Assembly: GCA_020628495.1 (NCBI GenBank)
Contig: JAHDFA010000005.1
Location: forward strand, 1 to 47,774
Reading direction: 5' to 3'
Length of the DNA stretch: 47,774 nt
From: Hellea sp.
GTDB taxonomy: Bacteria; Pseudomonadota; Alphaproteobacteria; Caulobacterales; Maricaulaceae
In this document: positions 13,547 through 34,423 of the stretch, in pieces
How positions within the stretch are numbered: the stretch's first letter is position 1
Layout: each line of letters starts with the position of its first letter
Position numbers and translations under genes: made by a program
Notes under the pieces: model-generated
What the model was told of the DNA's origin: nothing
The model's input: the letters and a program-made list of their open reading frames with translations, nothing else
The model's database searches: none

Positions 13547-14950
13547 CTAAAACTGGAAGTAAATAAACGAGCTGATTGTCAGTGGCAAAATTTGTAGTAC
13601 GAGTGCAAAAATGGCGCCGAGACCCAGCCAATATATCCAAGGCCGTGTTACAAAATTAACCGACTTTTTATGCAGGGGCGCAACGATCAGACAATCGACA
13701 AGTAGGGGCAAGAAAATCAGAGCGTAGGGCACCAAAATCATCTTGCCATCGCCTGTTGAAAGCGGTGAGAGGAACCCGGAAAAGACAGAGAAGACATCCT
13801 CTTTACTTGCAGCCCGGAAAGGCACCCAAGCGAGAAGTGCCACGAGTTGCGTTAAGAACCATCCGCCTGCCAGCATAACAATCGGTGCGACCGTTCTGTT
13901 CTTGAGCAAAAACCGCAATCCATGGTTCAAAATTAAGGCGCCGCCATGAATGAAACCCCAGAGGATAAAAGCAAAGCTCGCCCCGTGCCACAATCCACCT
14001 AAAACCATAGTCGCCATTAAATTTCGATAGCGTTTGATCTGCCCAAAACGGTTGCCGCCCAGCAATGCGATGTAAAGATAATCGCGGAGCCAACCGGATA
14101 ATGAAATGTGCCAAGTTCTCCAAAAATTGATGATAGAGGTTGCTGTGTAAGGAAAGCGGAAATTTTCAGGCAGTTTGAAACCCAATAAGCGTGAAACGCC
14201 GATGGCCATGAGTGAATATCCCGCAAAATCAAAATAGATTTGTCCGTAAAAACCCAAGGTTCCCATGACTTTCACATGCGAGGCAAAGCTGTCTGGCGCA
14301 GCGTAAACTTGGTCAACGAAAGGGGCGAGGCTGTCTGCAAAAATGGCCTTATAGATGAAGCCCATAACAAATGCGCGTGTGCCTTCAATCAGATCAGAGC
14401 GTTTCAGAATTTTATCTTCCAAAAGTTGCGGCATAAAATCTGTCGCCCGGACAATCGGACCCGCGACAAGTTGCGGAAAGAAAGCGATATATAAACCGAC
14501 CCGCAAGATACTTTTTTCCAATGGTATCGTCTTTTTCGCGGCATCGACCATATAGGAAATTGCTTGGAAGGTGAAAAAAGAGACGCCGACGGGTAGGATA
14601 ATTTTCAAGGTTGGGGCCGATAAAGTTAGGCCGAAGATGCCCATTGCATCTTGAAAGGTTTCGACAAAAAATCCGAAATATTTAAAGACAGCTAAAACGC
14701 CTAATGCCGACAAAATACCTGCTGGCATAATGAATTTATTCGTTGGATATCGATGTTTCAAAAGCGGGATGGCCCAAGACAGCAAGATGACGAAACTTAT
14801 TAGAATGAGAAAACGCCAGTCCCACCATCCGTAAAAAACAAAGGACATTCCTAATAAGAATACATGCCGCAATGTACGGCCGCGCATTGTCCAATAGATG
14901 GCGAAGCAGATAGCTAAAAAAGCAAAAAATACGGGTTCCGTAAAAATCAT
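13547..14950 (-). CDS. MBOAT-family O-acyltransferase (AlgI-like)
   Basis: VSFFTFQAISYMVD, FPQLVAGPIVR, FWRTWHISLSGWLRDYLYI, GGLWHGASFAFILWG. Confidence 0.95.
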   Translation of the reverse strand: MIFTEPVFFAFLAICFAIYWTMRGRTLRHVFLLGMSFVFYGWWDWRFLILISFVILLSWAIPLLKHRYPTNKFIMPAGILSALGVLAVFKYFGFFVETFQDAMGIFGLTLSAPTLKIILPVGVSFFTFQAISYMVDAAKKTIPLEKSILRVGLYIAFFPQLVAGPIVRATDFMPQLLEDKILKRSDLIEGTRAFVMGFIYKAIFADSLAPFVDQVYAAPDSFASHVKVMGTLGFYGQIYFDFAGYSLMAIGVSRLLGFKLPENFRFPYTATSIINFWRTWHISLSGWLRDYLYIALLGGNRFGQIKRYRNLMATMVLGGLWHGASFAFILWGFIHGGALILNHGLRFLLKNRTVAPIVMLAGGWFLTQLVALLAWVPFRAASKEDVFSVFSGFLSPLSTGDGKMILVPYALIFLPLLVDCLIVAPLHKKSVNFVTRPWIYWLGLGAIFALVLQILPLTISSFIYFQF

Positions 14951-16146
14951 TTTACAAGACCTGCTTGGGATATAATTTTACCTGAAAGCCAAGTGGTGTA
15001 ACTGTCGGCTCCTTTTTTGGACAGGTGATTGGGATCTGTCCAGTAACTATCGTCATCAAAGCTCTTGAGTAAATCGGCATAGTCTTGGTCGATGAACAGG
15101 CATGCGGCTTTCGGGTCGCGGCAATAAGAGTTAAAATATCGCAAGTCACGCGTGTTTGTCGTGATAGGAAGATATGCCAATTCAATGTCGACGAGTTGTT
15201 CTTTCAAAGTGTCGACTTTGGGAGAGACACCGGATTGGCTCCAACTCCAGCGTTTTTTCGCACGGCTCGATGGCGCTCCGGTTGCAGCGTTCGGTCCCAG
15301 AATATGGTTCTCAACAAATTTATTGGCTTTATCAAGTGTGGCCGGGGTCACGGGTTTTCTGTTTTTCGAAATCGGATTATATCCAGGATAAGGTTTTAGA
15401 TCCTTCGTCAGGACGGGCTCACGCAGACGCCCCAGCCCGAGCATATTAATCGCTGTTGCTTTTTTCAGTACCTTTGCGGCTTCTTTTTGCGGTTCAGTCA
15501 GGGACTCTTCGCTAACAAGGTCCATGGCTTTTAGTTGTCGCCACGAGCTCAGAGGTTCCGCATAGCCCACCACGCGATCATTAATATCACGAACTTGATT
15601 AAGTGGGTAAGTATCATAACCGCTATGTGCCTCACGCAAAAAAACAATGCGGCGTTTTCCAACCTCTTTTTCGGACGCTAGACGTCCTAATAGGCTCTCT
15701 AACAAACGTGCACGTTCAAAATGATTAGCTCCCGGCAGGCTGCTTTGAAAAACAGTGACGTTGAAGCCGCGTCTTTTTAGCAAGGTCTCAAGTGCTTGCC
15801 CGTCAATTGCACGATGCGCGTAACTACCTCCGTCAATGATAATTATATTATTCTCAAGCGTATTGGTCTGCGTGATAAGGCTTTGAGACAAACGTTCTGT
15901 CACGGTGTTTCGGGATAAAAATTCAGATGCAAACAAGGCTGAAATCAGCCCAATAATGATGAAAAAACCGCTCAAAAATAAAGCAAGATTTTTCAGAACG
16001 TCGAGAAAACTTGAAGATGTCTCAAGCGAAGATGCTTTCTCATCAATAGTATTCGGAGCTTGTTCGCTGAGGTCATTGTTCAATGGACGGTAGAAGACAC
16101 CCATAATGGCCAATGCTATGCACCCGATTATAGCAACCCAGACCAT
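14947..16146 (-). CDS. Membrane-anchored SGNH/AlgJ-like protein, partner of the MBOAT protein
   Basis: Two N-terminal TM segments; IIIDGGSYAH Ser-containing motif and C-terminal DPNHLSKKGADSYT (SGNH DxxH-like); 4-nt overlap with the MBOAT gene. Confidence 0.7.
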   Translation of the reverse strand: MVWVAIIGCIALAIMGVFYRPLNNDLSEQAPNTIDEKASSLETSSSFLDVLKNLALFLSGFFIIIGLISALFASEFLSRNTVTERLSQSLITQTNTLENNIIIIDGGSYAHRAIDGQALETLLKRRGFNVTVFQSSLPGANHFERARLLESLLGRLASEKEVGKRRIVFLREAHSGYDTYPLNQVRDINDRVVGYAEPLSSWRQLKAMDLVSEESLTEPQKEAAKVLKKATAINMLGLGRLREPVLTKDLKPYPGYNPISKNRKPVTPATLDKANKFVENHILGPNAATGAPSSRAKKRWSWSQSGVSPKVDTLKEQLVDIELAYLPITTNTRDLRYFNSYCRDPKAACLFIDQDYADLLKSFDDDSYWTDPNHLSKKGADSYTTWLSGKIISQAGLVK

Positions 16147-16852: not shown

Positions 16853-16964
16853 TTTAATGTCCTGAGAGCGGAAATGGGAAGATTTCATATCGACGTTCCT
16901 ATATTGTATAAGCGAAGGGCAAGCAAGCGTGATAAACTGTTGCAAAAAAGGTGTTTTTTAATTG

Positions 16965-18407
16965 ATGTCCGAAGAAACTCTGAGGCGAATATGGGAAAAT
17001 AATGCCAAGCCTCTTTTGGTAGCTTCGGGACAGAGTGTTTTGTCGACACCTGTTTACGACGGTATTTTTTTGTGGCCTGTATTGAAATCAGCCCTCATCA
17101 TGACTCTGTTAAATCAATATCAAACGGCGCCATTGGGGCATCCTCTGACCAAATCTCCACGCTTCTTGGACAAAGTAAAATCAAAAATTGAAACGAAAAT
17201 CTTGCGAACCAGTCGGCCTACAGCTTCGAAGCAAGCCGAATTCACGTTCAAAATGGACGGGCCTGATGTCTTGTGTCTTGGGAATATTGGACCGACGTTG
17301 AAGCGGGCGGGCGGGCTCTATAACCCCCATTTCGACCCGCTCAGATTTGAGTTGGCCAACTGTGGCATGTCAAGTTTTGCCTTATATTATGATACTGATT
17401 TGGAGGGGCTTGCTTTTGAGCAAAACTCTGCAAGCATTAAATCCTATACAGATATGGCCATCAATCATGCGTCCCTGAAAGCTCAGGCGATGGAGGATTT
17501 GTGGGACATATTTGAAACGGCTTTGCAATCAGCAAATATTCGCGAGCTTAACCTTAATCTTTCTCCGGAATTTTTCGTCCATCGCGTCGCTGTCATCCTT
17601 GAGTGCCGGAAATTTTTCAGAACTTTATTTACGGCTTATCCGGAAATTCGAACCCTGCTGATGACCAATTATTACAACCCCGTTGGGTGGGGCGCACTTT
17701 ATGCGGCACATGATCATGACATTCGCAGGATTGATATCCAGCACGGCGCGCAGGGTCGTTTTCATCATGCGTATTCGGGATTCGAGTTGAGCCAAGTGGC
17801 GTCGAGACCGGACGGTTTTCTATGTTGGGATAAGCGCTCTGCGGAAAATTTAGACGAACAATTGGGAGTGGGGCATACAAGAATTATTGGACTAAGCTCT
17901 GTCCGATCTGTTTCTGGGTCTGTTAAGACGGCCCGAAGGCTTCACGGTTCAAAGAGGATTTGTATTTTCCTACAATATACCGAATCCAGATCATGGTTGC
18001 AGGCTTTGCGAGCTGAGCTACCGAATGACGTGCATATCGGTGTTCGGAGGCACCCCGGGGCATTAAAAAAGGGTTTTATTTTCGACTTACCGGAAGGCTG
18101 TGAGAGCTGCGACGAAACTGATATGGCAAGGCTTTTGCTGAATTTGGATCTAGCTGTGACAGGCTATTCAACTTCAGCTCTTGAGGCAGAGGAATTTGGC
18201 GTGCCCGTTATCGCCTATTCCGTTTTAGCTCCGGCTTTCTTAGACGCCGGTCGAACCGTGACCCCTATAACCCATTCTTCTCCCGAACCTGAAATACTCG
18301 CAGCGCAGATTCTAACTGAGCTTGAGAAAAATTCACGAAATATTCCCAAACTGCCGGAAGTTCCGAATTTACAGCCAATTGCAAAATGGGTCCTGACAGG
18401 CCGTTAA
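16965..18407 (+). CDS. Capsule polysaccharide biosynthesis-like protein, putative GT-B transferase (paralogue of 27797..29413)
   Basis: DIQHGAQGRFHHAYSGF, GVRRHPGALKKG, VTGYSTSALEAEEFGVPVIAYS; start region FLWPVLKS. Confidence 0.6.
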   Translation: MSEETLRRIWENNAKPLLVASGQSVLSTPVYDGIFLWPVLKSALIMTLLNQYQTAPLGHPLTKSPRFLDKVKSKIETKILRTSRPTASKQAEFTFKMDGPDVLCLGNIGPTLKRAGGLYNPHFDPLRFELANCGMSSFALYYDTDLEGLAFEQNSASIKSYTDMAINHASLKAQAMEDLWDIFETALQSANIRELNLNLSPEFFVHRVAVILECRKFFRTLFTAYPEIRTLLMTNYYNPVGWGALYAAHDHDIRRIDIQHGAQGRFHHAYSGFELSQVASRPDGFLCWDKRSAENLDEQLGVGHTRIIGLSSVRSVSGSVKTARRLHGSKRICIFLQYTESRSWLQALRAELPNDVHIGVRRHPGALKKGFIFDLPEGCESCDETDMARLLLNLDLAVTGYSTSALEAEEFGVPVIAYSVLAPAFLDAGRTVTPITHSSPEPEILAAQILTELEKNSRNIPKLPEVPNLQPIAKWVLTGR

Positions 18408-19558
18408 GCCTCGTCAAAAAATGATAATGTCGCATCGATCACTGTTTGCTGCTCGTGATCTGTGAGTTGCGTTGAGCAGGGAAGGGGTAAAATTTGTTCC
18501 CAAACTTGGTCAGCGATTCCGGTAAGTGTTTTGGGAGCGTCAAGATAGGGGGTCTGCCAATGCATGGGTTTCCAAAATGGCCGGGCATCCACGCCGCTCT
18601 CCCGCAGATGCTCGCGTAAGGCACTGACAGTTTCTGCCGAATGGGCCGGAAGGAAAATTCCGGAGAACCAATGATTACTTTCGCCCCAAGATTCGCTTCT
18701 GAACCCTTCCGCGCCGTCAATTTTTTTCCAAGCCTGAGTGTATCTATCCGCAATTCTTTTTTTAGCTGTCAAAAATTGCTCTAAAATTTCCATTTGCCCG
18801 ACGCCAATGGCAGCTTGGACATTTGTCATACGATAGTTGAAGCCAATAATGTCATGGTCATAACCGCTGCCGACCCGCGCGGTCGTGGTTAAATGACGAA
18901 CATATTTCATAAGGGCATCATCTTGGCCTAAAATAACGCCGCCGCCGCCAGTTGTGATGATTTTATTCCCGTTAAAGGACATAACATTCAGAGTCGCACC
19001 CATCTGCCCGACTTCTTTGTTCTTGTATCGCGTTCCAAGGGCCGCAGCCGCATCTGCGACGACGGGCAAATTCCACATTTTAGCGACCGACGTAATACGG
19101 TCCATATCAGGTGGATGACCCATGGTATGTACAGGCATAATGGCTGCAACGCGCCGTCCGGATTCCGTGTGGATACACTGGCCATCCGCATCTTTATGGC
19201 ACTGCGTATTCAGAGCGTTTTCCAATAGATCTGGATCTAAAGTCCAGCTGTTTTCAGTTATATCCATCAACCATGGAACGGCCTTGCAATGCGAAACGGC
19301 ATTCGCGGAGGCAATAAAAGTGAGCGTGGGTATGATTACAAGATCACCTGTATTGACACCTACAGACGTCAGAGCAGCGTGAAGGCCGGTTGTTCCTTGG
19401 GAAACACAGACAGCGTGGTCACTGCCAGTACGTTTCGCTAGTCTGTCCTCCAACTCGGTCACGAATCGTCCTACGGTTGACACGAAATTTTCTTCAACAC
19501 AGGCCTGTAGATACAGCCCTTCATTTCCGTCAAGATTGGGGATAGCGAGAGGGATCAT
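18404..19558 (-). CDS. legC: LegC-family DegT/DnrJ/EryC1/StrS aminotransferase
   Basis: SQGTTGLHAALTSVGV, DAAAALGTRYKNKEVGQMG, SFNGNKIITTGGGG (PLP lysine); adjacent to NDP-sugar dehydratase and neuB. Confidence 0.85.
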   Translation of the reverse strand: MIPLAIPNLDGNEGLYLQACVEENFVSTVGRFVTELEDRLAKRTGSDHAVCVSQGTTGLHAALTSVGVNTGDLVIIPTLTFIASANAVSHCKAVPWLMDITENSWTLDPDLLENALNTQCHKDADGQCIHTESGRRVAAIMPVHTMGHPPDMDRITSVAKMWNLPVVADAAAALGTRYKNKEVGQMGATLNVMSFNGNKIITTGGGGVILGQDDALMKYVRHLTTTARVGSGYDHDIIGFNYRMTNVQAAIGVGQMEILEQFLTAKKRIADRYTQAWKKIDGAEGFRSESWGESNHWFSGIFLPAHSAETVSALREHLRESGVDARPFWKPMHWQTPYLDAPKTLTGIADQVWEQILPLPCSTQLTDHEQQTVIDATLSFFDEA

Positions 19559-19594
19559 ATCATTTACTTCCGCGGACCATTTTCGTTCTGAGAG

Positions 19595-20839
19595 TTAGGC
19601 TCTTTGGTCCAAATTCAATTGGCTCACAACGTGAGTTTCGAGGAATTTGGGTTCAAGCTTTGCGATAATCGCCTTTAGAAATTCAGTCTCCAGCGCGCCG
19701 GAATGTTCACCCGATAAAAGCTGCCGTATCTGGTCGACAACGCTGCCTACATCGCCGTGACTTTTGCGGTAGCTGACGCTGCGTAAGCCGTTCAAGCCGA
19801 TTTCATTAACGGATTCACCTTCCGCGACGAATTCCTCGTAAGGCTTTTCTCCGGCGGTATTGGCGGGGGTCAGGATCAATGGATAACGTCCTTCGGCTTT
19901 ATCTGTTTCCAAATTTTTGATGGCCGCCTCTTCATCTTCGTATATGCGGGGCTCAAAACCCTGGTTATTAATAAATGCGCGCGCGATTTTTTCTAAGGGT
20001 ATGAGGTGGTCTTCGGGATTGAGACGGGGAATCGCAATGTGGCCATCCGGTGCTAAAATACTGGCCAAAGCGCAAATTTCACCTGATTCTTCAAGGCTAA
20101 CGAAATAGCGTGTCACGCCGATAGGACAAGCGAGGGGTTCGTCGCGTTTCATCCGATTTACAAAACTCTCAAGCAGGCTGCCATTTGAAAAGGCGACATT
20201 GGCAAATCGCGCCGATGTCACAATCGCATTGCCTAGTGTCTTGCGCCCATCGCTCGCGAACATGACATGCTCCATGACCCGCTTTGTCGCACCCATGAGT
20301 GAACTTGGATTAGCGGCTTTATCTGTCGAGACAGAGAAATAGCGACCGGAAAAGCCTGTCTGTCCAAGCCAGTTGAGAAAACGGTCTTGTTTCAAGATGT
20401 TGGTGTCAAACATTTGCAATGTTGAGAAAGGATCTTTTTCACTCCTGACATGTTTTATTGCCGCGAAATTCAATACGATATCGTAAGCTGCCTGAGCTTT
20501 TAAGAATTGTAATGTCGCATGTGAACCATAATCCAATGGCAGGGTTCTGAAATCCGCAATGGCAAGTCCGCCGGGCTGTGATCTGAGTTGGCGGACCAAT
20601 TCGGCCAGCGCATTTTCATTTTGGTCAATAACGTGCAAAGATTTTGGGCCAAAATGTTGAAGAGTCTTTATCGTATTTGATCCGATTGAACCTGCGGCTC
20701 CGACGGCTAAAATGCGCTTTCCTGAAACTCGTTTTGACATCAGCGTATTCTGAGCCGTGAGATCGCCGCTAAACATCGATATTGTCCGCCCTGTCGCGAT
20801 GTTTGCGCCGCCGGGTGTTCGCATGGGGTTAAGTGACAT
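19595..20839 (-). CDS. NDP-N-acetylglucosamine 4,6-dehydratase-like (CapD/PglF/LegB-type) SDR protein
   Basis: ILAVGAAGSIGSNTIKTL Rossmann motif; NFAAIKHV; SVSTDKAANPSSLMGATKRVMEHVM. Confidence 0.85.
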   Translation of the reverse strand: MSLNPMRTPGGANIATGRTISMFSGDLTAQNTLMSKRVSGKRILAVGAAGSIGSNTIKTLQHFGPKSLHVIDQNENALAELVRQLRSQPGGLAIADFRTLPLDYGSHATLQFLKAQAAYDIVLNFAAIKHVRSEKDPFSTLQMFDTNILKQDRFLNWLGQTGFSGRYFSVSTDKAANPSSLMGATKRVMEHVMFASDGRKTLGNAIVTSARFANVAFSNGSLLESFVNRMKRDEPLACPIGVTRYFVSLEESGEICALASILAPDGHIAIPRLNPEDHLIPLEKIARAFINNQGFEPRIYEDEEAAIKNLETDKAEGRYPLILTPANTAGEKPYEEFVAEGESVNEIGLNGLRSVSYRKSHGDVGSVVDQIRQLLSGEHSGALETEFLKAIIAKLEPKFLETHVVSQLNLDQRA

Positions 20840-20981: not shown

Positions 20982-22052
20982 GTGTCTACAAAAATAATTG
21001 CTGAAATCGGTGTCAACCATAACGGTGATATTTCGATAGCGAAGAAGCTAATCGATGTTGTCGCCGAATCCGGTGCAGATTATGCGAAATTCCAGACCTT
21101 TTCTCCAAAATTATTATCATCCAGCAAAGCGCCAAAGGCTGCTTATCAGAAAGAAACGACGGATGAGACCCAAAGCCAAGTCGACATGCTGACAGCCCTC
21201 ATGCTGCCGCATGAGGCTCATTTTGTTCTTCGGGATTATTGCGACGCCAAGGGCGTTAAATTTCTTTCAAGCGCATTTGACCACGAGAGTTTGGCGTTTT
21301 TGGTTAATGAGATGAAATTGGATTTAATCAAGTTCGGATCAGGGGAGCTGCAAAACGCGCCCTTGATTTATGAAGCGGCCAGGCTCGGTGTTGATATTAT
21401 CTTATCGACTGGCATGTCGATTTTATACGATGTTGAGCAGGCCTTGATGGTAATCGCGCTCGGATATTCGGAAAATCCTCCCGATAAGCCCACCCGAGAA
21501 GATTTTTTGACAGCATGGTGTGATCCGGCGCTGCGAGAATTGTTGAAAGAAAAAGTTGCGGTTCTTCACTGCACGACATCTTATCCAACGCCGCCGGAAG
21601 ATGTGAATCTCTTTGCTATGGATACGCTCTCCCAGGCATTCGGGTTGAGAACAGGCTTCTCTGATCATACTGAAGGCAATGCAGCTTGCGTCGCGGCGGT
21701 TGCGCGCGGAGCTTTAATCATTGAGAAACATGTGACTTTAGATAAAGGCATGGACGGCCCGGATCATGCGGCCTCCAGCTCTCCTGATGATTTTAAGGCC
21801 ATGGTCGATGATATACGTTTTGTGGAACGTGCAATGGGGCACAGCTACCGCGTTCCCAGTCCGACCGAGCGTGAAAACGCCATTGCGGCCCGAAAAAGTC
21901 TGGTGGCATTAAAGCCAATTGCTAAAAATGATGTATTCACACGCGAAAATGTTACGGTGAAACGCCCGGGTGGCGGTCTGTCCCCTATATCCTTTTGGGA
22001 CATATTAGGCACAAAAAGTCAGCGTTCATATGACCTGGATGATACAATCTAG
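20982..22052 (+). CDS. neuB: N-acetylneuraminate / legionaminate synthase (NeuB/LegI family)
   Basis: IIAEIGVNHNGDISIAKKLID, KFQTF, KFGSGELQNAPLI, STGMS, GFSDHTEGNAACVAAVARGA, C-terminal SAF-like region; GTG start. Confidence 0.93.
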   Translation: MSTKIIAEIGVNHNGDISIAKKLIDVVAESGADYAKFQTFSPKLLSSSKAPKAAYQKETTDETQSQVDMLTALMLPHEAHFVLRDYCDAKGVKFLSSAFDHESLAFLVNEMKLDLIKFGSGELQNAPLIYEAARLGVDIILSTGMSILYDVEQALMVIALGYSENPPDKPTREDFLTAWCDPALRELLKEKVAVLHCTTSYPTPPEDVNLFAMDTLSQAFGLRTGFSDHTEGNAACVAAVARGALIIEKHVTLDKGMDGPDHAASSSPDDFKAMVDDIRFVERAMGHSYRVPSPTERENAIAARKSLVALKPIAKNDVFTRENVTVKRPGGGLSPISFWDILGTKSQRSYDLDDTI

Positions 22053-22054: not shown

Positions 22055-23818
22055 ATGAGTGGTTTAGGACAAGATTTTCTACCCAATCTCCGGTATTTGA
22101 AGCCGGATGTTGTCATGTTGTGCGCGAATGATGGTTGGGATGTGCGGGCGCTGAAAGAGGCGCGGAGTTTGGCTGCATCAGGTTTGTCTGTCGTCATTGT
22201 AGGACGGCGTCGTTACCACACAGATTTAGCCCGGTTTTCTGACGAATTTGAAATCGACATTGTCGATGTGGCGATGCTGAATGATCCTGTCACAATGCGA
22301 CTGCATATGGAGTCGGGTGTTTGGAAACGGATGAGTTTGTTCGAGAAAATTCTGACGAGTTTTTTACATTGGTGGTTTTCGATGACTGGCTTGAAAATAA
22401 AGCCGAAATTCGTACCGCCGCCCGTCAGTGGTAATGTACTGAAGAAAATTGAACGGAGAAGGAATCTTTTGGCGGCGAGGGCCAAAAAACGCGGCAAGCG
22501 AAAAAAGCTGGCGCCACGCGGGCATAGTCTGTGGCGTGAGAGTCTCGCGCGGACTTATGCCCGCGCCACGGCCCCCCTTGCATTAAGATTGCAGAAAAAC
22601 CGCATAACTTTTCTTTTTATGCGGGCGCTGGCTCTTTTTGCGAAGGGCATTATTTTGCTTCTAATTCTGCCCTTTGCGTTCATCGCATTGCCGTTCATCC
22701 TCATTTATAAAGGCGTTCGTTGGCTTCATGCGAAAGTGCGACGTTTCATTCCTGAGCCGCCAAATTTACTCGGGCGCATTCATCGTCGGATACTCGCCGA
22801 AATTACAAAGAGTGGCCGGACTATGTTCCGATATTCTCGGTTTTTTCTATATACTTTGGAGTATGGAGAAACTGTTGCTCGTTTAAATCCGAAAATCATT
22901 CACGCGCATGATCTTTACACACTGCAGGCGGCCACCCGCATTGCCAAATGGACGGGTGCAAAAGTAATTTATGACGCCCATGAACTTGAATCCGACCGCC
23001 GCGCTGGAACCGGAAAGCGGATGAAGAAGTGGATCATCAATCAAGAAAAAAAATATGCGCCAAAGGCAGATGGATGGGTAACGGTATCCCATGCCATTGG
23101 CGATGAAATGGTCAAAGAATGTAAATTGAAAGACCAGCCAACCGTGGTGTTTAATTCTCCCGTGATTAAAGGCATGCCCAAAGCTATGACGGGGCGAACC
23201 GTTCGAACGGATTTAGGTTTGGATTCCTCCGTGCCGCTATTTGTCTTCGTCGGCAAAGTCTATGAAATCCACAAAGGAAACCAAAAAATCGCCTATATCA
23301 TAGACGCCATTGCGGATATTGAAGATTTTCACTTGGCAATCGTTGGCCCCATGAGCGACCATGCACGTGAACAAATTCGTTCATTGCTCGAAGAAAACAA
23401 TGCGAAGGGCAGGGTTCATTTGGTTCCACCAATCCCCGCCGAAGCCATCGTCCACTACATCAAAGATGCCGATGCAAGTGTCTATTTTATGTGGCCGGAT
23501 ACTCGAAATATTGATCTCACGATTCCCAATAAGCTTTTTGAGTTTTCGCTGTCAGGATTGCCGCTTGTCGTATCTTCGCTTTACTCGACGCGTTGGTTTT
23601 GTGAGCAGTTCGACAATGCAATCCCCGTTGCCGAAAATACGAAAGAAGCCATCACCGCAGCTTGTAGGCAAGCCTATGCTGAGCGGGACCGCTTACGTCC
23701 AACGTCTGAACAACTCGAAATCATGAAGCGCGATTTCTCTTGGAGCGCCCAGGCGGACAAACTTTGGGCATTATATAGATCAATTCTGCTATTACCGGAT
23801 GGGAGGCTAAAGAAATGA
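22055..23818 (+). CDS. GT4-like glycosyltransferase with a basic/transmembrane insertion
   Basis: IIHAHDLYTLQAATRIAKWTGAKVIYDAHELESDRRAG; VGKVYEIHKGNQKI; NKLFEFSLSGLPLVVS; hydrophobic stretch GIILLLILPFAFIALPFILIY in the middle. Confidence 0.8.
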   Translation: MSGLGQDFLPNLRYLKPDVVMLCANDGWDVRALKEARSLAASGLSVVIVGRRRYHTDLARFSDEFEIDIVDVAMLNDPVTMRLHMESGVWKRMSLFEKILTSFLHWWFSMTGLKIKPKFVPPPVSGNVLKKIERRRNLLAARAKKRGKRKKLAPRGHSLWRESLARTYARATAPLALRLQKNRITFLFMRALALFAKGIILLLILPFAFIALPFILIYKGVRWLHAKVRRFIPEPPNLLGRIHRRILAEITKSGRTMFRYSRFFLYTLEYGETVARLNPKIIHAHDLYTLQAATRIAKWTGAKVIYDAHELESDRRAGTGKRMKKWIINQEKKYAPKADGWVTVSHAIGDEMVKECKLKDQPTVVFNSPVIKGMPKAMTGRTVRTDLGLDSSVPLFVFVGKVYEIHKGNQKIAYIIDAIADIEDFHLAIVGPMSDHAREQIRSLLEENNAKGRVHLVPPIPAEAIVHYIKDADASVYFMWPDTRNIDLTIPNKLFEFSLSGLPLVVSSLYSTRWFCEQFDNAIPVAENTKEAITAACRQAYAERDRLRPTSEQLEIMKRDFSWSAQADKLWALYRSILLLPDGRLKK

Positions 23819-24864
23819 CGCCCAATATCTCTGCAATCTCTCCCGTCTCTACGCTCATTGAGGCGATGTCGGCGATTGATAAAAGCGGAAAAGGTTTCGT
23901 CCTTATCGTATCTTCTGACGGGCGGCTGGATGGCGTTTTGACCGACGGTGATATCCGGCGTCAATTGCTGGCGGGTTTGAAACGGAATGATAAAATAACC
24001 GATATCTACAATAGAAATCCGATTACACTTAAACAGCCTTATAGTTTTAACGACGTAAGGGATATTTTCAAAACTAAGAAAATCCGCCATCTTCCGGTAA
24101 CTGACGATAATGGTGTGTTGCTAGATGTATTGTTTGACGTCGACTATTTGAGTGGTCAGACAGTTCTTCATAATCCTGTCGTAATTATGGCTGGTGGTAT
24201 TGGGTCCAGGCTTATGCCGCTGACAAAAAATTGTCCCAAGCCAATGGTGCCGGTTGCAGGCATACCGATGATCGAACGGATTATCGGAAATCTAAAATCC
24301 AGCGGTTTTTACCGCATGTTTCTGACGGTGAACTATAAAAAAGATGTCCTGAAGGACTACTTCAAAGATGGATCTGACTTTGGTGTCGAAATCACTTATA
24401 TTGAAGAAACAAAACGTATGGGCACCGCCGGCAGTTTGAAGTTGGCGGAATTTGCGTTGGACCAAGATATTCTTGTAACAAACGGCGACATTCTCTGCGG
24501 TGCAAATTTCGCCCAAATCCTTTCCCAGCATAAAGCCTCAAGGGCTCTCGCGACTATGGCGGTACGTGATTACAGCGCGAAAGTTCCCTTCGGTGTCGTC
24601 AGCGTTCGGGATAAGGAAATTTTGAGTATTACTGAAAAACCATCTTTTACACATCTTGTGTCGGCAGGCATCAATGTTTTGAACCCGCAAGCGATTAGGT
24701 TCATTCCTGACGATGTTTTTTATGACATGCCCAGCTTGTTTCAAGCTCTTTTAGAGGCCGGTAAGAAAACCAATGTCTATCATATCAATGAATATTGGTT
24801 CGATCTTGGAACGAAAAAAGATTTAGATGTTGCGGCTGCGTTTTTGGAAAGTCAGGACACTTAG
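23815..24864 (+). CDS. CBS-domain nucleotidyltransferase (PtmE-like sugar-1-phosphate guanylyl/nucleotidyltransferase)
   Basis: Two CBS-like segments, then VVIMAGGIGSRLMPLTKNCPKPMVPVAGIPMIE; ATGA overlap with preceding GT gene. Confidence 0.88.
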   Translation: MTPNISAISPVSTLIEAMSAIDKSGKGFVLIVSSDGRLDGVLTDGDIRRQLLAGLKRNDKITDIYNRNPITLKQPYSFNDVRDIFKTKKIRHLPVTDDNGVLLDVLFDVDYLSGQTVLHNPVVIMAGGIGSRLMPLTKNCPKPMVPVAGIPMIERIIGNLKSSGFYRMFLTVNYKKDVLKDYFKDGSDFGVEITYIEETKRMGTAGSLKLAEFALDQDILVTNGDILCGANFAQILSQHKASRALATMAVRDYSAKVPFGVVSVRDKEILSITEKPSFTHLVSAGINVLNPQAIRFIPDDVFYDMPSLFQALLEAGKKTNVYHINEYWFDLGTKKDLDVAAAFLESQDT

Positions 24865-24932: not shown

Positions 24933-27791
24933 ATGTTCAAAAAATTTGAAATACTAAATCTCATTGGATTTGTCCTGAAATGGATAGGTCGAGATAATCT
25001 GCGTCCACGCATTATTGATACGCTTCCATCTTTATTTTTACTGATAATTTCTCCGTTTTTTTCGACCTTGGCTTTTGTATTGCTTCCATTGGCGATATTT
25101 TCCTCAAGCGATGTACCCCTGAAAATTCCCGGTTTGCCGGAACTACCGACCTTGACGAATTCAATGGATAAATGGGCGTTTTGGGTGATTCCGGTATTGT
25201 TTCTTGCCTTTGCCCTAACAAGTTATTTTGGTCATCGGTTGGTGCTTCGCCATTCCATGATTTATCAACGCAGCCTGTCGCGCCGGGTTTCAGATTTTTA
25301 CTATTCAATGATCCGAAGTGGATCGGTTGACCCTCTATTGGATGTCGCGGTTATTCGAAAGCTCATCTTGGGAGATTCTCGCTATCTGGCTCGTATATAT
25401 ATGAGCCTCTATCTTCTCATACCGCAGCTTGTAATGGCGATGGCAAGCTTTTTAGCGCTTATCTATCTCGTTCCCAAGATTATGATGACGTTGATTGCCG
25501 TGTTTATTTTCTTCATCCCTGCCTATGTATTTGTCGCTAATTCAAGCCGTCAAGCGTCTGCCGGATTTTTAGAAGGGGCGGCAAAATTAAGTCGATACCT
25601 GCCGGGTGCTCTGAAAGATGTCGCGACGCTCCCAAAACCTCAAACCCTGTCCCCCTCAACTGTATCCGATGTCATTTTAGGAGATCCCTCGAAAGAGTTT
25701 TTTGAATGTTTCGAAACTCGGACAAGGATGACTTATGTCGGCGCGCTTGTTTCGAATGTGGCGTTGGCGTTTATGTTGGTCGCCCTCATTGTATTGCTGC
25801 CAAGTGTGACACAAAATGATTTGGCACTGCAGGTCTCACTGGGTGTCGTATTACTGATTGCGGCCCGTTATTTCTTTGGCGGCGTTACTGCGGTCGTTCG
25901 AATTCTTGTCGCGATCAGTAATACATATCCATATTATGGGAATTACTTGCGGGCATTTCCGAATAGTCGATGGGCCATTGGCGACGAGGTTGTCCCGGAT
26001 GACAGGCCGTCTAACCCGCCGGAATTAAGTGGCTCATCCCTCGGTTTGGTTCTTGTGGGAACACCTCAATCTGGTGATGAGAATATGCTATTAATACCCG
26101 GCTTAGGGACATTCCCACGTGTGCGTCCTTACAATATATTGGACTGGAGAAAAGCTAGAAATCAAACAGTCCAGCCTGAAAACCCTGCTGTCTCGAAAAT
26201 CAGGTCATTGGATAATCAAGCGGTGTATTCCGATGCCGGAGGCTTAATTTTTGCCATTGCAGATGCCGTGGATCAATTAGGTCCAATTGTATTAGACGAG
26301 GCGGAATGGCGCCGTATCAACCAAAAACGACGCATAACATTGGCTACGATTTTGAAAGAGCAGGCCATACCTCTCTGGATAACCTCACTAGATTACGACC
26401 GCTTCTGTAAGCCCGAACCGGAAAGCGTTTATGTTGTGAATGCGTTTGAAAATATAGTGACAGAAATCGCCCCGGAAGACAGCGTCCTATATTTGGGTGG
26501 AGCCCCGCTTCAGCCTCTCGAAATTTTGGATCTACAGTCGGACAAAAGCTCCGGATGTCCGGATTTGATGATTTATATTACGCGAAACAGAAATTCATTA
26601 TCCGTTGTTAACAAACTTCTACAAAATATTCCGTCTCGTTGGGTGGAACCAAAGCCTTTAAACGTTTCCGACTTTGGAGATGACAAGCTTGACTTAAAGC
26701 GCCTTTATTCTGAATTTCCATCCCTATCACAATTTTGGGACAAACTTTACGAAAACATGTCCGAAAGCGCGATTATGTCAACGCAGAGCGGTCATTTGGT
26801 CGAAAATTTGAGTGTGGAATTGATTCATGGTTTAGCCGTGGCCCTGAACAGCCATCCCGAACTTTTAGTCTTCGACCACGAAGTCCCAGCAAAGCTAAGA
26901 CAGAATCAACGCCCAGCTTTTTATAAAGCGCTTGAAAAAGCGGGGCTCCGGATTGCTATCATCGGGGAGCCGGGACAACCGGAACTGCGCCCCGAAGCGA
27001 CACACAGATTAGCCATAAGTGCAGAGCTGAATTTGGTAAGAAAATTAGACAAAGGCGTAAACTTGCCTGCGCCGAGAACATTCTCAGCCGAGCATAAAGT
27101 CCAAATCGGAGAAGTTAGTTTGGATATTGCTATCGGCGAAACATTTGGAATTGTAGCCAATCAAGGTGCGTTTGATTGGACAACTTATCGACACATGAAA
27201 AATTTGATTGGTGATGCCGCTCCGCGCTTGTTCCAGAACCCGTCCATTGTCTCTCCCAATTTGCTCTTGGGGAAAACTGTCAGCGATATAGCGATTAAGG
27301 GATTAGCGAAAATTGACTTTGGCCGGCTTAAATTTCTTTATCCGGCTCTCGCCGCAAATTGGGATGAAGCCCGGAAAATTCATCATTTATTGCTCTCTTT
27401 CCTCGAATCAGCCGGCGATCAGTATAATTTCTCTAATAAAGTTACACCGCGAAACGCATTTTACCTGACCTTAGCTTCTGCCCTAACGCATAATCCTGAG
27501 ACCCTCTACGTTCGTGAGGACGACTTTCGTTTGCTGCCGCAATCGGAACGTATGAAAATCGCAAGTGCCCTAAAGGGCATTCTCATTGTGGTGTGGAAAA
27601 ACCATATGCGAGGTGCATTTATCAAACCTCGATCACCTCATGCCTTAATGCTGGAAAATTCGGGTGTTATCGCCATAACGAAGTCAGAGTTTAATGCGCG
27701 CGACATCCTGCCGTCTCAATATAAAAGGCTAATTGCTGAGCCTTTCAAAAGCCCGAGTGCAGACCTCTCTGATATCATGATCGAGGATTAG
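24933..27791 (+). CDS. 952-aa ABC-exporter-like protein: membrane domain plus three degenerate NBD-like segments lacking ATP-binding motifs
   Basis: About 6 hydrophobic segments in aa 1-340; NBD-like patterns at GPIVLDEAEW, LSVELIHGLAVALNSHPELLVFDHE, and SLDIAIGETFGIVANQGAFDWTTYRHMKNLIGD followed by VTPRNAFYLTLASALTHNPETLYVRED; no GxxGxGK[ST] anywhere. Confidence 0.6.
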   Translation: MFKKFEILNLIGFVLKWIGRDNLRPRIIDTLPSLFLLIISPFFSTLAFVLLPLAIFSSSDVPLKIPGLPELPTLTNSMDKWAFWVIPVLFLAFALTSYFGHRLVLRHSMIYQRSLSRRVSDFYYSMIRSGSVDPLLDVAVIRKLILGDSRYLARIYMSLYLLIPQLVMAMASFLALIYLVPKIMMTLIAVFIFFIPAYVFVANSSRQASAGFLEGAAKLSRYLPGALKDVATLPKPQTLSPSTVSDVILGDPSKEFFECFETRTRMTYVGALVSNVALAFMLVALIVLLPSVTQNDLALQVSLGVVLLIAARYFFGGVTAVVRILVAISNTYPYYGNYLRAFPNSRWAIGDEVVPDDRPSNPPELSGSSLGLVLVGTPQSGDENMLLIPGLGTFPRVRPYNILDWRKARNQTVQPENPAVSKIRSLDNQAVYSDAGGLIFAIADAVDQLGPIVLDEAEWRRINQKRRITLATILKEQAIPLWITSLDYDRFCKPEPESVYVVNAFENIVTEIAPEDSVLYLGGAPLQPLEILDLQSDKSSGCPDLMIYITRNRNSLSVVNKLLQNIPSRWVEPKPLNVSDFGDDKLDLKRLYSEFPSLSQFWDKLYENMSESAIMSTQSGHLVENLSVELIHGLAVALNSHPELLVFDHEVPAKLRQNQRPAFYKALEKAGLRIAIIGEPGQPELRPEATHRLAISAELNLVRKLDKGVNLPAPRTFSAEHKVQIGEVSLDIAIGETFGIVANQGAFDWTTYRHMKNLIGDAAPRLFQNPSIVSPNLLLGKTVSDIAIKGLAKIDFGRLKFLYPALAANWDEARKIHHLLLSFLESAGDQYNFSNKVTPRNAFYLTLASALTHNPETLYVREDDFRLLPQSERMKIASALKGILIVVWKNHMRGAFIKPRSPHALMLENSGVIAITKSEFNARDILPSQYKRLIAEPFKSPSADLSDIMIED

Positions 27792-27796: not shown

Positions 27797-29413
27797 TTAA
27801 ACCATAGACTTCGTGATGGCGTTTCCAAGTTCTTCAAAATCACAAGATCCCTGAGATCTAATCTGGTCTGTTGCATACGCAGATAAGCGCTGTTTTATTC
27901 CTGCGACCATAATATCAGGAGAGGGAAGTACGACTTTTACTTGGGATATTTCCACAGGACCAAAGAAGTGAGTTGCGGCCTCAGAATAGGCGACTGTGGG
28001 AATACCGTAAGCCATAGCATCCTGAGCAACTGAGGAATATTTTGTCAAAATAATATCTGTTTCATTTAAAACGACATTAAGAGGAATATGTGTCGGTAAA
28101 TCGACGAGAATATTCTCGGTTTCTAAAGCGGCACATCTTGCTTCGAGCTTTCCGGCCTTATTATACTCGCCCGGATGGAGACGAATGAATATATTCCATT
28201 CATCCGGCATTATTTTCTTAAATCGAGGAAACCATTCCAGAGTTTCATCAGGGTGTAATGCAAGCAGAATATTCTTCTTTTCCGGATCATCCAGTAAACC
28301 CGTCGCCCTAAACTGGCGTTTAAACGCATCAATTGAGCCGACAGCAGACATACGATGTTCTTGTACGAGGACATCCGGAGCTGTTTGATAAGCTAAGATA
28401 TCGTCCAGCAATCTCCATATATTACCGATAACCACCAAACCGGGTTTCCAATCTCCACTACCTGTGATCATATTTCTTTTCTCTATGTCTGACCATAGAA
28501 AGAAGTGGGTTGGAAGCGTTGTGTAGCTTTCCTTAGGTGCGTTTGGCCAAGAGTAAGCGTGGTGCCCGGGGCCTGCCACACCGTGCTGGATATCTGCGAT
28601 ATTAACATTCAGCTTCCGAAACGCCCAGCTGGCGCCATGACCCATCAAACCATAATAGGCCGCAACCAAAACGGCTTTGGGCGGCTCATCTTTGAACGTT
28701 CTGTAAATCCACTCGGCTGTGATCCGCGTCTGTTTGATAACATTTTCGATATGTTCGATTGTGACGAATTTTTGTCGCCCCAATAATGCGTCTAAATCAT
28801 CCCACCACTGAGCAAAGCCTTTACAACCCATCAAGTTTACATCCGGCAATTGACTGCTGAGACGACGGGCGGCGCGAAACTCTGCATCAATCCCAAATGT
28901 GTCATCTAGCGCAGCATTCTCAACGCCGTCTGCATCCGCACTCAAGCCAGCAATGCAGCATGCGGTCGTGTAACCGACCGTTTCGAGCGCTAGACGACAG
29001 GGGTCCATGCAAAGCTGGAAATAGGTCTCACCAAATTTTTTGTGATTGGTTGCATAGCCTAGGGCCAAGACATCAGGGACTCCGCCCTCCGGAAGTGGGA
29101 ATTCCGGCCAAACCATCTCATCGAAAATACCATTATCAACTTCCGGTGGCGCAGGGTATTCTTCCTTGGCTTTTACGAAAAACCGATTGAAAAATCCACT
29201 CGAAGCTTTGGGGGCCTCAGCCTCGACAGGATCTTTAATCAAGGTCATGTTCCGGCCGGCAAAAAATATGTTGGAGCCCCGCATGACAATTTGTGATTTT
29301 ACGACAGGCCAAATATCCATCCCTAGATAGGACCAGGATTTTTCATATCCTTTCGGATGGCCAACATTGACGTATTTGTATAGCGTGTCGAAGAGAGAAT
29401 TGTCTGTACTCAC
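27797..29413 (-). CDS. Capsule polysaccharide biosynthesis-like protein, putative GT-B transferase (paralogue of 16965..18407)
   Basis: WSYLGMDIWPVVKSQIVM start region; DIQHGVAGPGHHAYSW; FIRLHPGEYNKAG; LTKYSSVAQDAMAYGIPTVAYS. Confidence 0.6.
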   Translation of the reverse strand: MSTDNSLFDTLYKYVNVGHPKGYEKSWSYLGMDIWPVVKSQIVMRGSNIFFAGRNMTLIKDPVEAEAPKASSGFFNRFFVKAKEEYPAPPEVDNGIFDEMVWPEFPLPEGGVPDVLALGYATNHKKFGETYFQLCMDPCRLALETVGYTTACCIAGLSADADGVENAALDDTFGIDAEFRAARRLSSQLPDVNLMGCKGFAQWWDDLDALLGRQKFVTIEHIENVIKQTRITAEWIYRTFKDEPPKAVLVAAYYGLMGHGASWAFRKLNVNIADIQHGVAGPGHHAYSWPNAPKESYTTLPTHFFLWSDIEKRNMITGSGDWKPGLVVIGNIWRLLDDILAYQTAPDVLVQEHRMSAVGSIDAFKRQFRATGLLDDPEKKNILLALHPDETLEWFPRFKKIMPDEWNIFIRLHPGEYNKAGKLEARCAALETENILVDLPTHIPLNVVLNETDIILTKYSSVAQDAMAYGIPTVAYSEAATHFFGPVEISQVKVVLPSPDIMVAGIKQRLSAYATDQIRSQGSCDFEELGNAITKSMV

Positions 29414-29591
29414 CGGATTTCCTGCTCCTGACCGCCGCGCGGTTTCACCTATGTTTCTGACTGGCCTGTGGCAAGTAAATTCCCGGCATAGCTGCCTGAA
29501 ATTATGGCTAGAGGAAATAGTCTTTTCGCAACTTTAGTGGACTTTTTGAGAGAGTCTACATAGATAGTGAAAAACACTTACGCGAAGCGAG

Positions 29592-30515: not shown

Positions 30516-31306
30516 AAATTACTGTTTTTACATCTAATCAACCGCGTCATATCTCTCTCATCAAGGATTTGGCAGCGATTGCCGATGAGGTTTACGCGAT
30601 ACAGGAATGCAATACGGTATTTCCCGGAAAAGTTGATGATTTCTTTAAAAAATCCGAGGTCATGCAAGACTATTTCGCGAATGTGATTAGAGCTGAAAGA
30701 GATGTATTTGGCGGACTTACATTTTTGCCGTCGAATGTGAAATCCATGGCGCTAAAAATGCACGATTTGACTAAATTGGATATTGAAAGTCTGAAACCTG
30801 CTTTGGAATCCGACGTATATGTCGTATTTGGCGCTACCTATATTCGCAAGCCACTGATAAATATTTTGGTCGAGAACAAGGCCATCAACATCCATATGGG
30901 AGTGTCACCATATTATCGTGGCAGTTCGTGCAACTTCTGGGCCCTCCAGCAGGGTAATTATGATCTCGTTGGATCAACAATTCATATGTTGTCCAAAGGC
31001 CTGGACTCAGGGGCAATGCTCTTTCACGCATTGCCGAAGCCTGTAGGAGATGAGCCTTTCGTTTTCGGCATGAAAGCCGTGCGGGCTGCTCACAAATCTC
31101 TCGTGAAGACAATTGCTTCCGGTGAACTTTTTGACATGCAGCCTGTTGTGCAAGACAGAGAAATGGAAATTAGTTATACGCGAAATTCTGATTTTGACGA
31201 TGATGTGGCCAAAGCCTATCTAGAAAATAGCCCTACAGCAGATGATTTGACAGAATATTTTAAAACTGCGCCACAGCGTGATTTCTTAAATCCTCAATTT
31301 TACTGA
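30512..31306 (+). CDS. Formyltransferase-family protein (sugar N-formyltransferase candidate)
   Basis: INIHMGVSPYYRGSSCNFWALQQGNYDLVGSTIHMLSKGLDSGAML matches the N...H...S..RG and D-loop pattern of formyltransferases. Confidence 0.8.
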   Translation: MKITVFTSNQPRHISLIKDLAAIADEVYAIQECNTVFPGKVDDFFKKSEVMQDYFANVIRAERDVFGGLTFLPSNVKSMALKMHDLTKLDIESLKPALESDVYVVFGATYIRKPLINILVENKAINIHMGVSPYYRGSSCNFWALQQGNYDLVGSTIHMLSKGLDSGAMLFHALPKPVGDEPFVFGMKAVRAAHKSLVKTIASGELFDMQPVVQDREMEISYTRNSDFDDDVAKAYLENSPTADDLTEYFKTAPQRDFLNPQFY

Positions 31307-31598: not shown

Positions 31599-32255
31599 TT
31601 ATTTTTTGGCTCTGGCTGGCACCCCATATGCGGTCTGATGGTCGTCAATATCCTTAGTCACAACGGCTCCTGCACCTATCGTAACGTGTTTGCCAATTTT
31701 GATGTTCTGTAACAGGCTCGCACCCAAACCTATGTGTGACTTTTCACCAACTTTCACGCCACCGGACAAGGTCGCGCCGGGCGCGACATGTACGCCGTCA
31801 CCAATTTTACAGTCATGATCAAGGCCCGCGCGTGTGTTGATAATGCAATTCCGACCAATCACTGTACCAATATTCACGCAGGCCATAGGGAACACGACAC
31901 TTCCTTCACCAATCTCAGCCAAATTTGAAATCACGGCGCTGGGCGCAATAATCTTTGCCGGGGACAAGCCGGCGTTCAAGCCTGTTGCAAATAACGTATC
32001 CCGTATATGATCTTCGCCCGTCAGACGTCCCATACCAATAACGAAATGACTGGCGACATCTCGTTCATACAATGATTTGGCAGAGGTTTCCTTTTCGTTA
32101 TAGACGGGAACGTCATCAAAGCCCGAAACGGCCTTGTCTCCCATCGTGAAAAACCCTGCCAAAACATAATCATTGCCGGACCGAACACAGTCGGCCACCA
32201 TTCTCGCATGACCACCTCCGCCAAAAATTATCAATCGAGGGCGCGAAGATAACAT
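31599..32255 (-). CDS. neuD: Sugar O/N-acetyltransferase, NeuD/PglD family (left-handed beta-helix)
   Basis: LIIFGGGGHARMVADCVRSG start; hexapeptide repeats (IGEGSVVFPMACVNIGTVIGRNCIINTRAGLDHDCKIGDGVHVAPGATLSG). Confidence 0.9.
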   Translation of the reverse strand: MLSSRPRLIIFGGGGHARMVADCVRSGNDYVLAGFFTMGDKAVSGFDDVPVYNEKETSAKSLYERDVASHFVIGMGRLTGEDHIRDTLFATGLNAGLSPAKIIAPSAVISNLAEIGEGSVVFPMACVNIGTVIGRNCIINTRAGLDHDCKIGDGVHVAPGATLSGGVKVGEKSHIGLGASLLQNIKIGKHVTIGAGAVVTKDIDDHQTAYGVPARAKK

Positions 32256-32372
32256 GAATCAGAATCTCTCCTATAGTCCCGACACAGATATTGTTGACGG
32301 GTTGCTAAGATTAACGACTTCGGCGATACGCACTCTTTCATCATTGAGCAAGTGAGGTTAGGTCAGGAAATT

Positions 32373-33524
32373 ATGAAGTGTCTTGTTGTCACCTCCACCC
32401 GCGCTGATTTTGGCTTGCTCCGGCATCCCATGATAGCGATTGAAAATCACCCTAAATTGGAGCTTCTGGTCGCAGCTTCCGGCACGCATTTGTCTAAAGA
32501 TCATGGTTATACGGTTGATGAAATTACACGCGCCGGTTTCTCCGTTGATTATGAAATCCCGATCCTAACCCAATCGGATGATGGGCTGGCAACCTCAGAG
32601 ACCTTGAGCCGTGCCATTTCAGGCCTGTCTAAAGCTTACGCTGCGGCACAGCCCGATATGATTGTGGTTCTCGGTGATCGGTATGAAATATTCGGCGCGG
32701 CCAGCGCCGCGACACTTATGCGCATTCCCATAGCACATCTTTGCGGTGGCGACGTGACTGAAGGCGCATATGATGAAGCTTTCCGGCACGGAATATCGAA
32801 GATGGCTGCATTGCATTTTCCAACACATGAACAAGCTGCGCTGCGGCTAATCACAATGGGTGAGCCCAAAGACCGCATTTTTAATATCGGTAATACCGGC
32901 TTGGATGCTTTGACGGACATTGACTGGATGCCGAGAGAATTTGTTTTCGATAGGCTCGGGCTGCGCCCACGTAAATTTAATGTTGTCACGACATATCATC
33001 CGGTCACACGTGATCCCGCTGTCGCTATGCAGGAACTGTCATCCCTTCTGAATGCTTTTCACGTTATGGCGTCAGATTTAGGTATCATCTTCACTGGGGT
33101 AAATGCCGATACGGGTGCATCCGATATCACGCGGGAAATTCATAACTTTGCGGCGGGACGAGATAATGTCGTGATACACGACTCACTCGGTCACAATCTC
33201 TACATGAACACCGTGCGGCAAATGGATGCTGTCGTTGGGAATTCTTCCAGCGGGATTTATGAGGCTCCAGCGCTGAAAACTGCAACATTAGATATCGGGC
33301 CGAGACAGAAGGGACGTCCACAGGCTCGCTCCGTTATCCACGTTGACGGAGATGAAAACGAAATCCTCAAAGGTCTAAAGGCTGCCATTGCGCTCGATTG
33401 CTCTAGCGTCGAGAGTCTTTATGGCAATGGCGGTGCCAGTGAGGCCTTCGTCGATGTGCTTGCAAGAGGTTACGACAGACAAGCGCTTCTCAACAAACCT
33501 TTCGTCGATTTCAAAACATTTTAG
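32373..33524 (+). CDS. neuC: Hydrolysing UDP/GDP-N-acetylglucosamine 2-epimerase (NeuC/LegG family)
   Basis: CLVVTSTRADFGLLRHP; VVLGDRYEIFGAASAA; HLCGGDVTEGAYDEAFRHGISKMAALHFPT; GNSSSGIYEAP. Confidence 0.93.
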   Translation: MKCLVVTSTRADFGLLRHPMIAIENHPKLELLVAASGTHLSKDHGYTVDEITRAGFSVDYEIPILTQSDDGLATSETLSRAISGLSKAYAAAQPDMIVVLGDRYEIFGAASAATLMRIPIAHLCGGDVTEGAYDEAFRHGISKMAALHFPTHEQAALRLITMGEPKDRIFNIGNTGLDALTDIDWMPREFVFDRLGLRPRKFNVVTTYHPVTRDPAVAMQELSSLLNAFHVMASDLGIIFTGVNADTGASDITREIHNFAAGRDNVVIHDSLGHNLYMNTVRQMDAVVGNSSSGIYEAPALKTATLDIGPRQKGRPQARSVIHVDGDENEILKGLKAAIALDCSSVESLYGNGGASEAFVDVLARGYDRQALLNKPFVDFKTF

Positions 33525-34264
33525 GTCTTCGGTTTCTGACTGAGCGGAGGCGTATGTGGCCAGCCTAACTGAGTTTCCGCAACAAAAGCGGCCAAGTCAA
33601 AATCGAGCGCAAGATCAACGTCGAAGCTATAGAGATCAGGCATCTCCCAATATCCGCTTTCAGGCGTTAATGCGTGATCCCATGCATAGAGACCGGCGCG
33701 GCTCCAGGCATAAATAGACCCATTTAGCTGGTAAGATTTTGGCACATCCTGACGACGCGTTTTAGCGTGTCCGGACAGAGTTTTGGCAATTGCTAATCGG
33801 CCGTTGTCGCCCACTTCCACCTGGTTGAAATAGGGGGAAACCTTACAAGCCGCAATCGAAATGGCATTGGCGAGGGACGAATCTTTTTCCAAAGTAGCAA
33901 TCGTGCCGGGAATATCTTCGGGACGTCGCAAAGGGGAAGTCGGTTGAAGGTCAACGATTGTGTCGAACTTTATACCGGACGATACCTCAACCGTCTCTAG
34001 AGCGTGGCGTAAAACAGGTTGTTTAGCCACATTATCACCGGAGAGGGCGTCGGGCCTAAGCACCGGATGGGTTGCACCATGCGCGACGGCAATGTCAATA
34101 TAAGCCTGACTATCACTGGAAATTGTAACGCAATCAAACTGTCCTGAGGCCAATGCCTGCTCAATCGAATGCGCGAGGAGGGGCTTTCCGGCAAAAATTA
34201 GAGCATTTTTGTTTGGAAGCCCTTTGGAACCGCTGCGCGCTGCGATAATACATAGACGTTTCAT
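33521..34264 (-). CDS. neuA: Acylneuraminate cytidylyltransferase (NeuA/LegF family)
   Basis: CIIAARSGSKGLPNKNALIFAGKPLLAHSIEQAL; VDLQPTSPLRRPEDI. Confidence 0.93.
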   Translation of the reverse strand: MKRLCIIAARSGSKGLPNKNALIFAGKPLLAHSIEQALASGQFDCVTISSDSQAYIDIAVAHGATHPVLRPDALSGDNVAKQPVLRHALETVEVSSGIKFDTIVDLQPTSPLRRPEDIPGTIATLEKDSSLANAISIAACKVSPYFNQVEVGDNGRLAIAKTLSGHAKTRRQDVPKSYQLNGSIYAWSRAGLYAWDHALTPESGYWEMPDLYSFDVDLALDFDLAAFVAETQLGWPHTPPLSQKPKT

Positions 34265-34423
34265 CGAAGACACTTTCTACTGAACTCATAGGAATTGAAG
34301 CGCCATATAAAGAAATTTTGAGAGTATGGCGAGATAATTTCGAGATATGCAAAGCATTTGGCTGACGCTACAAGCATTGAGCCGCCCAGCTTCATATTGT
34401 TATAAACAACTGTCGGAAAAACG

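Follow-up and report, generated by a model that had tools for sequence, protein, structure and literature searches.

ATP-driven nucleotide-binding domains (NBDs) define ABC transporters. The window studied here (the whole stretch of DNA that was analysed, 47,774 nucleotides) encodes, among genes for nonulosonate synthesis, an exporter-like protein whose ATPase motifs are gone, and this raises the question of what such a protein is and what it does at this locus. The sequence-only reading had described six membrane segments followed by three NBD-like segments, had proposed retention for a structural or regulatory role in glycan export or assembly, and had brought flagellin into consideration.

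The frame at 24933-27791 is open over 952 aa with no internal stop, in a genome of 1.83 Mb that is 66% complete. A Hellea sp. MAG (Robiginitomaculaceae, Alphaproteobacteria) encodes a full-length relative, identical at 41% of positions over 950 aa, and the two loci are syntenic gene by gene. Since the identity extends over the whole length and the locus is syntenic, the window frame is, as judged from this sequence comparison, not a chance one, and the uninterrupted 952-codon ORF was thus confirmed. Taken by part, the two proteins share 55% identity over the membrane domain, and the figures for segments 1, 2 and 3 are 26%, 30% and 41%. The frame and the features of its membrane domain are as follows, the two intracellular loops being putative assignments from the layout of ABC exporters.

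24933..27791, + strand: complete ORF of 952 aa, pseudo-ABC exporter; relative with 41% identity over the full length
24933..25967, + strand: transmembrane domain of ABC exporter type with six helices, residues 1-345; 55% identity with the Hellea MAG protein
25374..25385, + strand: putative intracellular loop 1 (coupling helix), D148-x-R150-Y151; R150 invariant in 12/12 members
25698..25721, + strand: putative intracellular loop 2, F256xxxF260xxR263; R/K at 263 in 12/12
25866..25868, + strand: R312 in TM6, invariant in the 12-member family alignment

The N-terminal domain of about 345 residues, with its six hydrophobic segments or helices, is homologous to the membrane domains of type I/IV ABC exporters, as the sequence-only reading had proposed. 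In hhalign, a profile of eight short cousins matched 25 intact exporters with a probability of 95% and an E-value of 2.4e-8. When a profile of the 12 membrane domains was run against 399 genomes of the phylum, an MsbA-like exporter with intact motifs was matched at 7.7e-7, and this was the sole match with E < 1e-5 outside the window genome. Near the N-terminus of the window domain lies the elbow motif WIxRDxxRP. Across the 12 members, the elbow Trp, the D/E-x-R-Y of loop 1, the F-x3-F-x2-R of loop 2 and the TM6 Arg are kept, the loop and TM6 arginines being invariant or nearly so, and no conserved acidic residue was found in the membrane helices in this alignment. The full-length AlphaFold model, with an input of two sequences, is poor (pLDDT 43.6), and the best 50 PDB matches to it in Foldseek were all of ABC exporter type; with viral structures Foldseek gave nothing significant. 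The models are of low confidence (pLDDT 44 for the full length and 51 for segment 3) because only two sequences were usable, and for both of them the fold comparison returned ABC-family structures.

The soluble part of the protein was divided into three segments.

25968..26492, + strand: pseudo-NBD repeat 1, residues 346-520, without Walker A; hhalign score 31.1 against repeat 3
26493..27068, + strand: pseudo-NBD repeat 2, residues 521-712, without Walker A; hhalign score 27.9 against repeat 3
27069..27788, + strand: pseudo-NBD repeat 3, residues 713-952; corresponds to the one pseudo-NBD that the short cousins have

The reading of three NBD-like segments stood directly for segment 3, by shuffles, decoys and Foldseek, and for segments 1 and 2 through repeat homology more than through direct NBD matches. 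The alignment of segment 3 with intact NBDs is colinear over the whole stretch between the Walker A and Walker B positions, and its score was reached by none of 120 column shuffles and none of 41 decoys. The eight-member profile, in which the window protein was not included, matched segment 3 at 2.3e-7, and segment 3 therefore corresponds to the one C-terminal domain of the cousins. Folded alone, it gave a model of pLDDT 51 and pTM 0.56, for which the best 50 PDB matches in Foldseek were all of the ABC family, mostly isolated ATPase subunits, with none passing E 0.001 and with TM-scores near 0.3. Because segments 1 and 2, when compared directly with intact NBDs, match weakly and not clearly above decoys, the claim of three repeats rests on their match to segment 3, with scores that were reached by 0/120 shuffles and 0/41 real-protein decoys. 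A helix-strand-helix-helix-strand order is common to all three segments in the poor full-length model. The case for segments 1 and 2 as extra, more diverged pseudo-NBD repeats is good but not conclusive, and it is the branch of the window and Hellea MAG proteins that gained these two extra copies.

The catalytic motifs were located in segment 3 by alignment.

27156..27182, + strand: Walker A position ANQGAFDWT, residues 742-750; Lys replaced by D748 and Ser/Thr by W749 in the family alignment
27441..27455, + strand: signature (LSGGQ) position VTPRN, residues 837-841; register from hhalign
27501..27524, + strand: Walker B position TLYVREDD, residues 857-864; TLYIREDD in the Hellea MAG protein
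27582..27605, + strand: H-loop strand region LIVVWKNH, residues 884-891; from the family alignment

Walker A (GxxGxGK[ST]) is absent from all three segments of the window protein and from all NBD-bearing relatives, and the family alignment thus bears out the loss that had been read from the window alone. The position reads ANQPLFDWM in the Hellea MAG protein and KKSDWSD, GAAFSWSA, PDGASWSV, AAHLNWAL or VPTSYANA in cousins. No NBD-bearing member has the Walker A Lys: Asp, Ser or Asn stands in its place, and the Ser/Thr position is occupied by Trp in 10 and by Tyr in 1 of the 11 NBD-bearing sequences, with an uncertain alignment of G103 at this aromatic position. Where a functional ATPase has LSGGQ and the catalytic Glu of hhhhDE, segment 3 has VTPRN, the degraded signature that had been noted, and LYVREDD. 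The claim that the H-loop His is absent did not hold for segment 3, where a conserved His, H891, is close to the H-loop and seems to stand two residues beyond the canonical site.

Ten more distant relatives were found in the same order, with a similar membrane domain and, except for one, a single C-terminal domain. The short cousins have 550-650 aa with one pseudo-NBD and occur in two bacterial families; the member in G296 has nothing but the membrane domain, is closed by a stop and has no visible NBD downstream of it. The family profile search found members in 10 of 397 genomes of the order and, within the bacterial family to which the window genome belongs, in 8 of 137. No further members were found in samples of 387 genomes of the class and 399 of the phylum, in which distant members may be missed owing to the sampling and a loose first pass. 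In the maximum-likelihood tree, the 12 pseudo-ABC membrane domains formed one clade with 100/100 support against 28 intact exporters; several branches are long, and the finer relations are unsure. Between G028 and G069, dN/dS was 0.036 for the membrane domain and 0.106 for the pseudo-NBD, and by the same measure the gene is under purifying selection in three close cousins. No orthologue with intact Walker motifs was found. Motif loss across the clade and purifying selection together mean that the motifs were lost long ago and that what remains is in use, in agreement with the proposal of a retained pseudo-ABC protein.

Searches of Pfam, NCBIfam and PDB sequences with the window protein gave nothing usable. 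A Pfam GRAB match had an E-value of 0.04, far below the family cut-off, and no member tested reached a Pfam cut-off. PHROGs gave a weak 'ABC transporter' match over residues 33-318 (E 0.0014), and the profile search against PDB sequences gave no ABC match and two weak efflux-pump matches, which were treated as chance. No relatives were found in phage, plasmid and viral collections. The proteins form a small, uncatalogued family of single origin, derived from type I/IV ABC exporters. With MsbA, TmrAB, PCAT1 and PrtD (PF00664 + PF00005) they share the six-helix membrane domain, the elbow and the intracellular loops; their C-terminal domain is colinear with the NBD of these exporters, which gave the best Foldseek matches. 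They differ in having no Walker A, no LSGGQ and an altered Walker B, in forming a separate clade and in carrying extra pseudo-NBD repeats. In the open-access literature, with most subscription papers outside the scope, we found no description of an ATPase-dead exporter of this kind.

The gene lies in a locus for nonulosonate glycan synthesis.

13547..16146, - strand: MBOAT O-acyltransferase (PF03062) and AlgJ/SGNH-like partner, the latter labelled from reading, with no Pfam match
18404..20839, - strand: LegC-type aminotransferase and LegB/PglF-type dehydratase
20982..22052, + strand: NeuB/LegI nonulosonate synthase (TIGR03569, E 1.7e-125)
23815..24864, + strand: PtmE-like CBS and nucleotidyltransferase protein, the immediate upstream neighbour, adjacent also in the Hellea MAG and in G264
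31599..34273: NeuD acetyltransferase (- strand), NeuC 2-epimerase (+ strand) and NeuA cytidylyltransferase (- strand)

The window locus also holds glycosyltransferases, a formyltransferase and deacetylase pair, and fucose- and rhamnose-type sugar genes that were assigned from sequence reading; the PtmE-like neighbour may, by resemblance, be of the GlcN-1-P guanylyltransferase type. Two related glycosyltransferase-like proteins (16962-18407 and 27797-29413) have no Pfam match over the cut-off and are both kept in the Hellea locus, and a relative of these two flanks the pseudo-ABC gene in G264 (L019:6450-8222). The block at 27797-31306 downstream of the pseudo-ABC gene (glycosyltransferase-like, deacetylase, formyltransferase) is inverted in the Hellea locus (L014:14214-17715).

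NeuB and the pseudo-ABC gene are 3 to 15 kb apart in all 10 testable genomes, a count that leaves out G303 (contig too short) and G296 (no NeuB in the genome). The chance of such proximity is about 1-2% per genome, with one or two NeuB in about 3 Mb, and about seven lineages are independent. LegB, LegC, PtmE and NeuC genes occur in the same loci. The set of NeuB/LegI, LegB, LegC, NeuC, NeuD, NeuA and PtmE-type genes around the pseudo-ABC gene resembles the legionaminate (Ptm/Leg) clusters, for which no pseudo-ABC protein was found in titles and abstracts. In the 18-30 kb scanned in G017, G264, G380, G103 and G063, the pseudo-ABC protein is the only polytopic membrane protein, with the exceptions of fragments of a broken second copy in G063 and, in G103, a protein that has three hydrophobic stretches of weaker character; in the other scanned loci an MBOAT protein stands beside it, and unrelated membrane proteins are encoded in the long window as well. 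As had been noted, the glycan locus contains neither Wzx nor an intact glycan exporter. Wzx-type flippases (PF01943) are present in all seven genomes checked, never at the pseudo-ABC locus, and no intact ABC exporter (PF00664) was found near the locus in six genomes checked.

On these observations, we consider the pseudo-ABC protein, at roughly even odds (about 0.5), to be an inner-membrane component that works without ATP in the assembly or translocation of nonulosonate surface glycans, its pseudo-NBDs acting as docking or coupling modules. The analysis shows the ancestry, dead motifs, selection and locus of the family; the step, ligand and partners are inferred. The pseudo-NBDs would sit under the intracellular loops, where they could dock or sense cytosolic enzymes (glycosyltransferase, nonulosonate synthesis). 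A dimeric membrane domain with its invariant arginines might receive an acidic lipid-linked or nucleotide-linked glycan and hold or pass it at the membrane, by translocation or by only anchoring its assembly. Against this reading, the Wzx elsewhere in each genome checked could do the flipping; the G296 cousin has no NBD and no NeuB, so neither feature is universal; the structure models are poor; and a shared neighbourhood does not say at which step the protein acts. A wider version of it, which we offer tentatively, is that the family represents a new class of translocator or assembly hub for glycans, in which ATP hydrolysis was given up and the NBD fold (with Trp at the P-loop Ser/Thr position, and triplicated in one lineage) was reused to dock nonulosonate enzymes or nucleotide sugars. 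Here NBD-like domains have been kept, and in one lineage multiplied, after loss of their catalytic motifs, at a defined pathway. The family thus offers a way to separate the structural contribution of the NBD fold from that of ATP, and it may supply the membrane step that is missing from the non-flagellar loci for nonulosonate glycans in marine alphaproteobacteria.

Among the alternatives, a secondary, ion-driven transporter like SbmA/BacA would move the nonulosonate glycan or its lipid carrier without ATP; we regard this as unlikely, though worth keeping in mind. SbmA is an established precedent derived from an ABC exporter (PMC13316013), and the likeness to SbmA/BacA (SLiPT) lies in an ABC exporter membrane fold that its own NBD cannot power (PMC13316013). 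The membrane-only member in G296 and the position of the pseudo-ABC protein as sole polytopic protein in most loci also speak for such a transporter. However, SbmA has kept the membrane part without NBDs, coupling helices or elbow, and it needs a glutamate ladder (PMC13316013), whereas our family is reversed on each tested point: pseudo-NBD, intracellular-loop and elbow motifs are present, and the membrane helices have no conserved glutamates. Nor was there a match to the SbmA_BacA Pfam family. Since the family differs from SbmA on each feature, it is not filed there and membership is rejected, though working free of ATP would be possible.

Heterodimeric exporter halves are usually co-encoded. 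It is improbable that the pseudo-ABC protein is the dead half of such an exporter, paired with an intact half encoded elsewhere to give a degenerate site. Its intracellular loops are conserved, and degenerate-site heterodimers, with one working site and ATP still bound at the other, are common among type I exporters (PMC7756269); TAP, TmrAB and BmrCD likewise have degenerate nucleotide-binding motifs kept by selection. But in these the degenerate half pairs with a functional one, whereas the pseudo-ABC protein has no co-encoded partner, and in six genomes searched no intact exporter lies near the locus. Three pseudo-NBDs in one chain are at odds with a 1:1 NBD dimer, and the loss of Walker A, signature and Walker B together goes beyond the degenerate sites in the review (PMC7756269).

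It would be a long shot that the pseudo-NBD binds another ligand (for example CMP-nonulosonate, a GDP-sugar or polyprenyl phosphate) with Trp in the place of the P-loop, as a sensor or gate of glycan flux. The strong co-location with nucleotide-sugar synthesis and an aromatic residue at the Walker A Ser/Thr position in 11/11 NBD-bearing sequences (that of G103 on an uncertain alignment) would suit such a role, but the sequence around the Trp varies and the models are too poor to show a pocket.

A component of flagellin glycosylation is very improbable. Flagellins carry nonulosonates in many bacteria, Caulobacter included (PMC7591256). However, no flagellin gene was found near the pseudo-ABC gene in the genomes checked, and G028, which is 99% complete, carries the pseudo-ABC gene but lacks flagellin genes altogether; G063 and G103 each have a second NeuB close to the flagellins, and the pseudo-ABC gene goes with the other NeuB. 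With flagellins elsewhere or absent, the flagellin system is largely refuted, and this part of the sequence-only reading fell. A decaying pseudogene of an ordinary ABC exporter, which the loss of all catalytic motifs might suggest, has a negligible chance, being refuted by conserved open frames (952 intact codons and a full-length relative from another genus at 41% identity), clade-wide loss and selection, with dN/dS in cousins far below 1.

Several minor observations concern the members and their genomes. A short acidic tail ends several members, the membrane-only one included (for example SDIMIED, EDIID, DDDEHE, FDDTTEFV; 27768-27788 in the window), and it may be a partner-binding tag. The second pseudo-ABC copy in G063 is in pieces around an IS3-like transposase gene (L016:13245-14138, 15234-15812; L032, L034), and the first copy is intact. 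Elsewhere in the window, a sensor kinase ORF (43272-45833) overlaps a response regulator on the opposite strand (43185-43802), and the kinase gene probably starts only after about 43800. In G264, two adjacent ABC exporter halves (G264:C17:310520-313446; L051, L059) have an altered Walker A Lys (GSGSST, GSGRSS) and are otherwise normal-looking.
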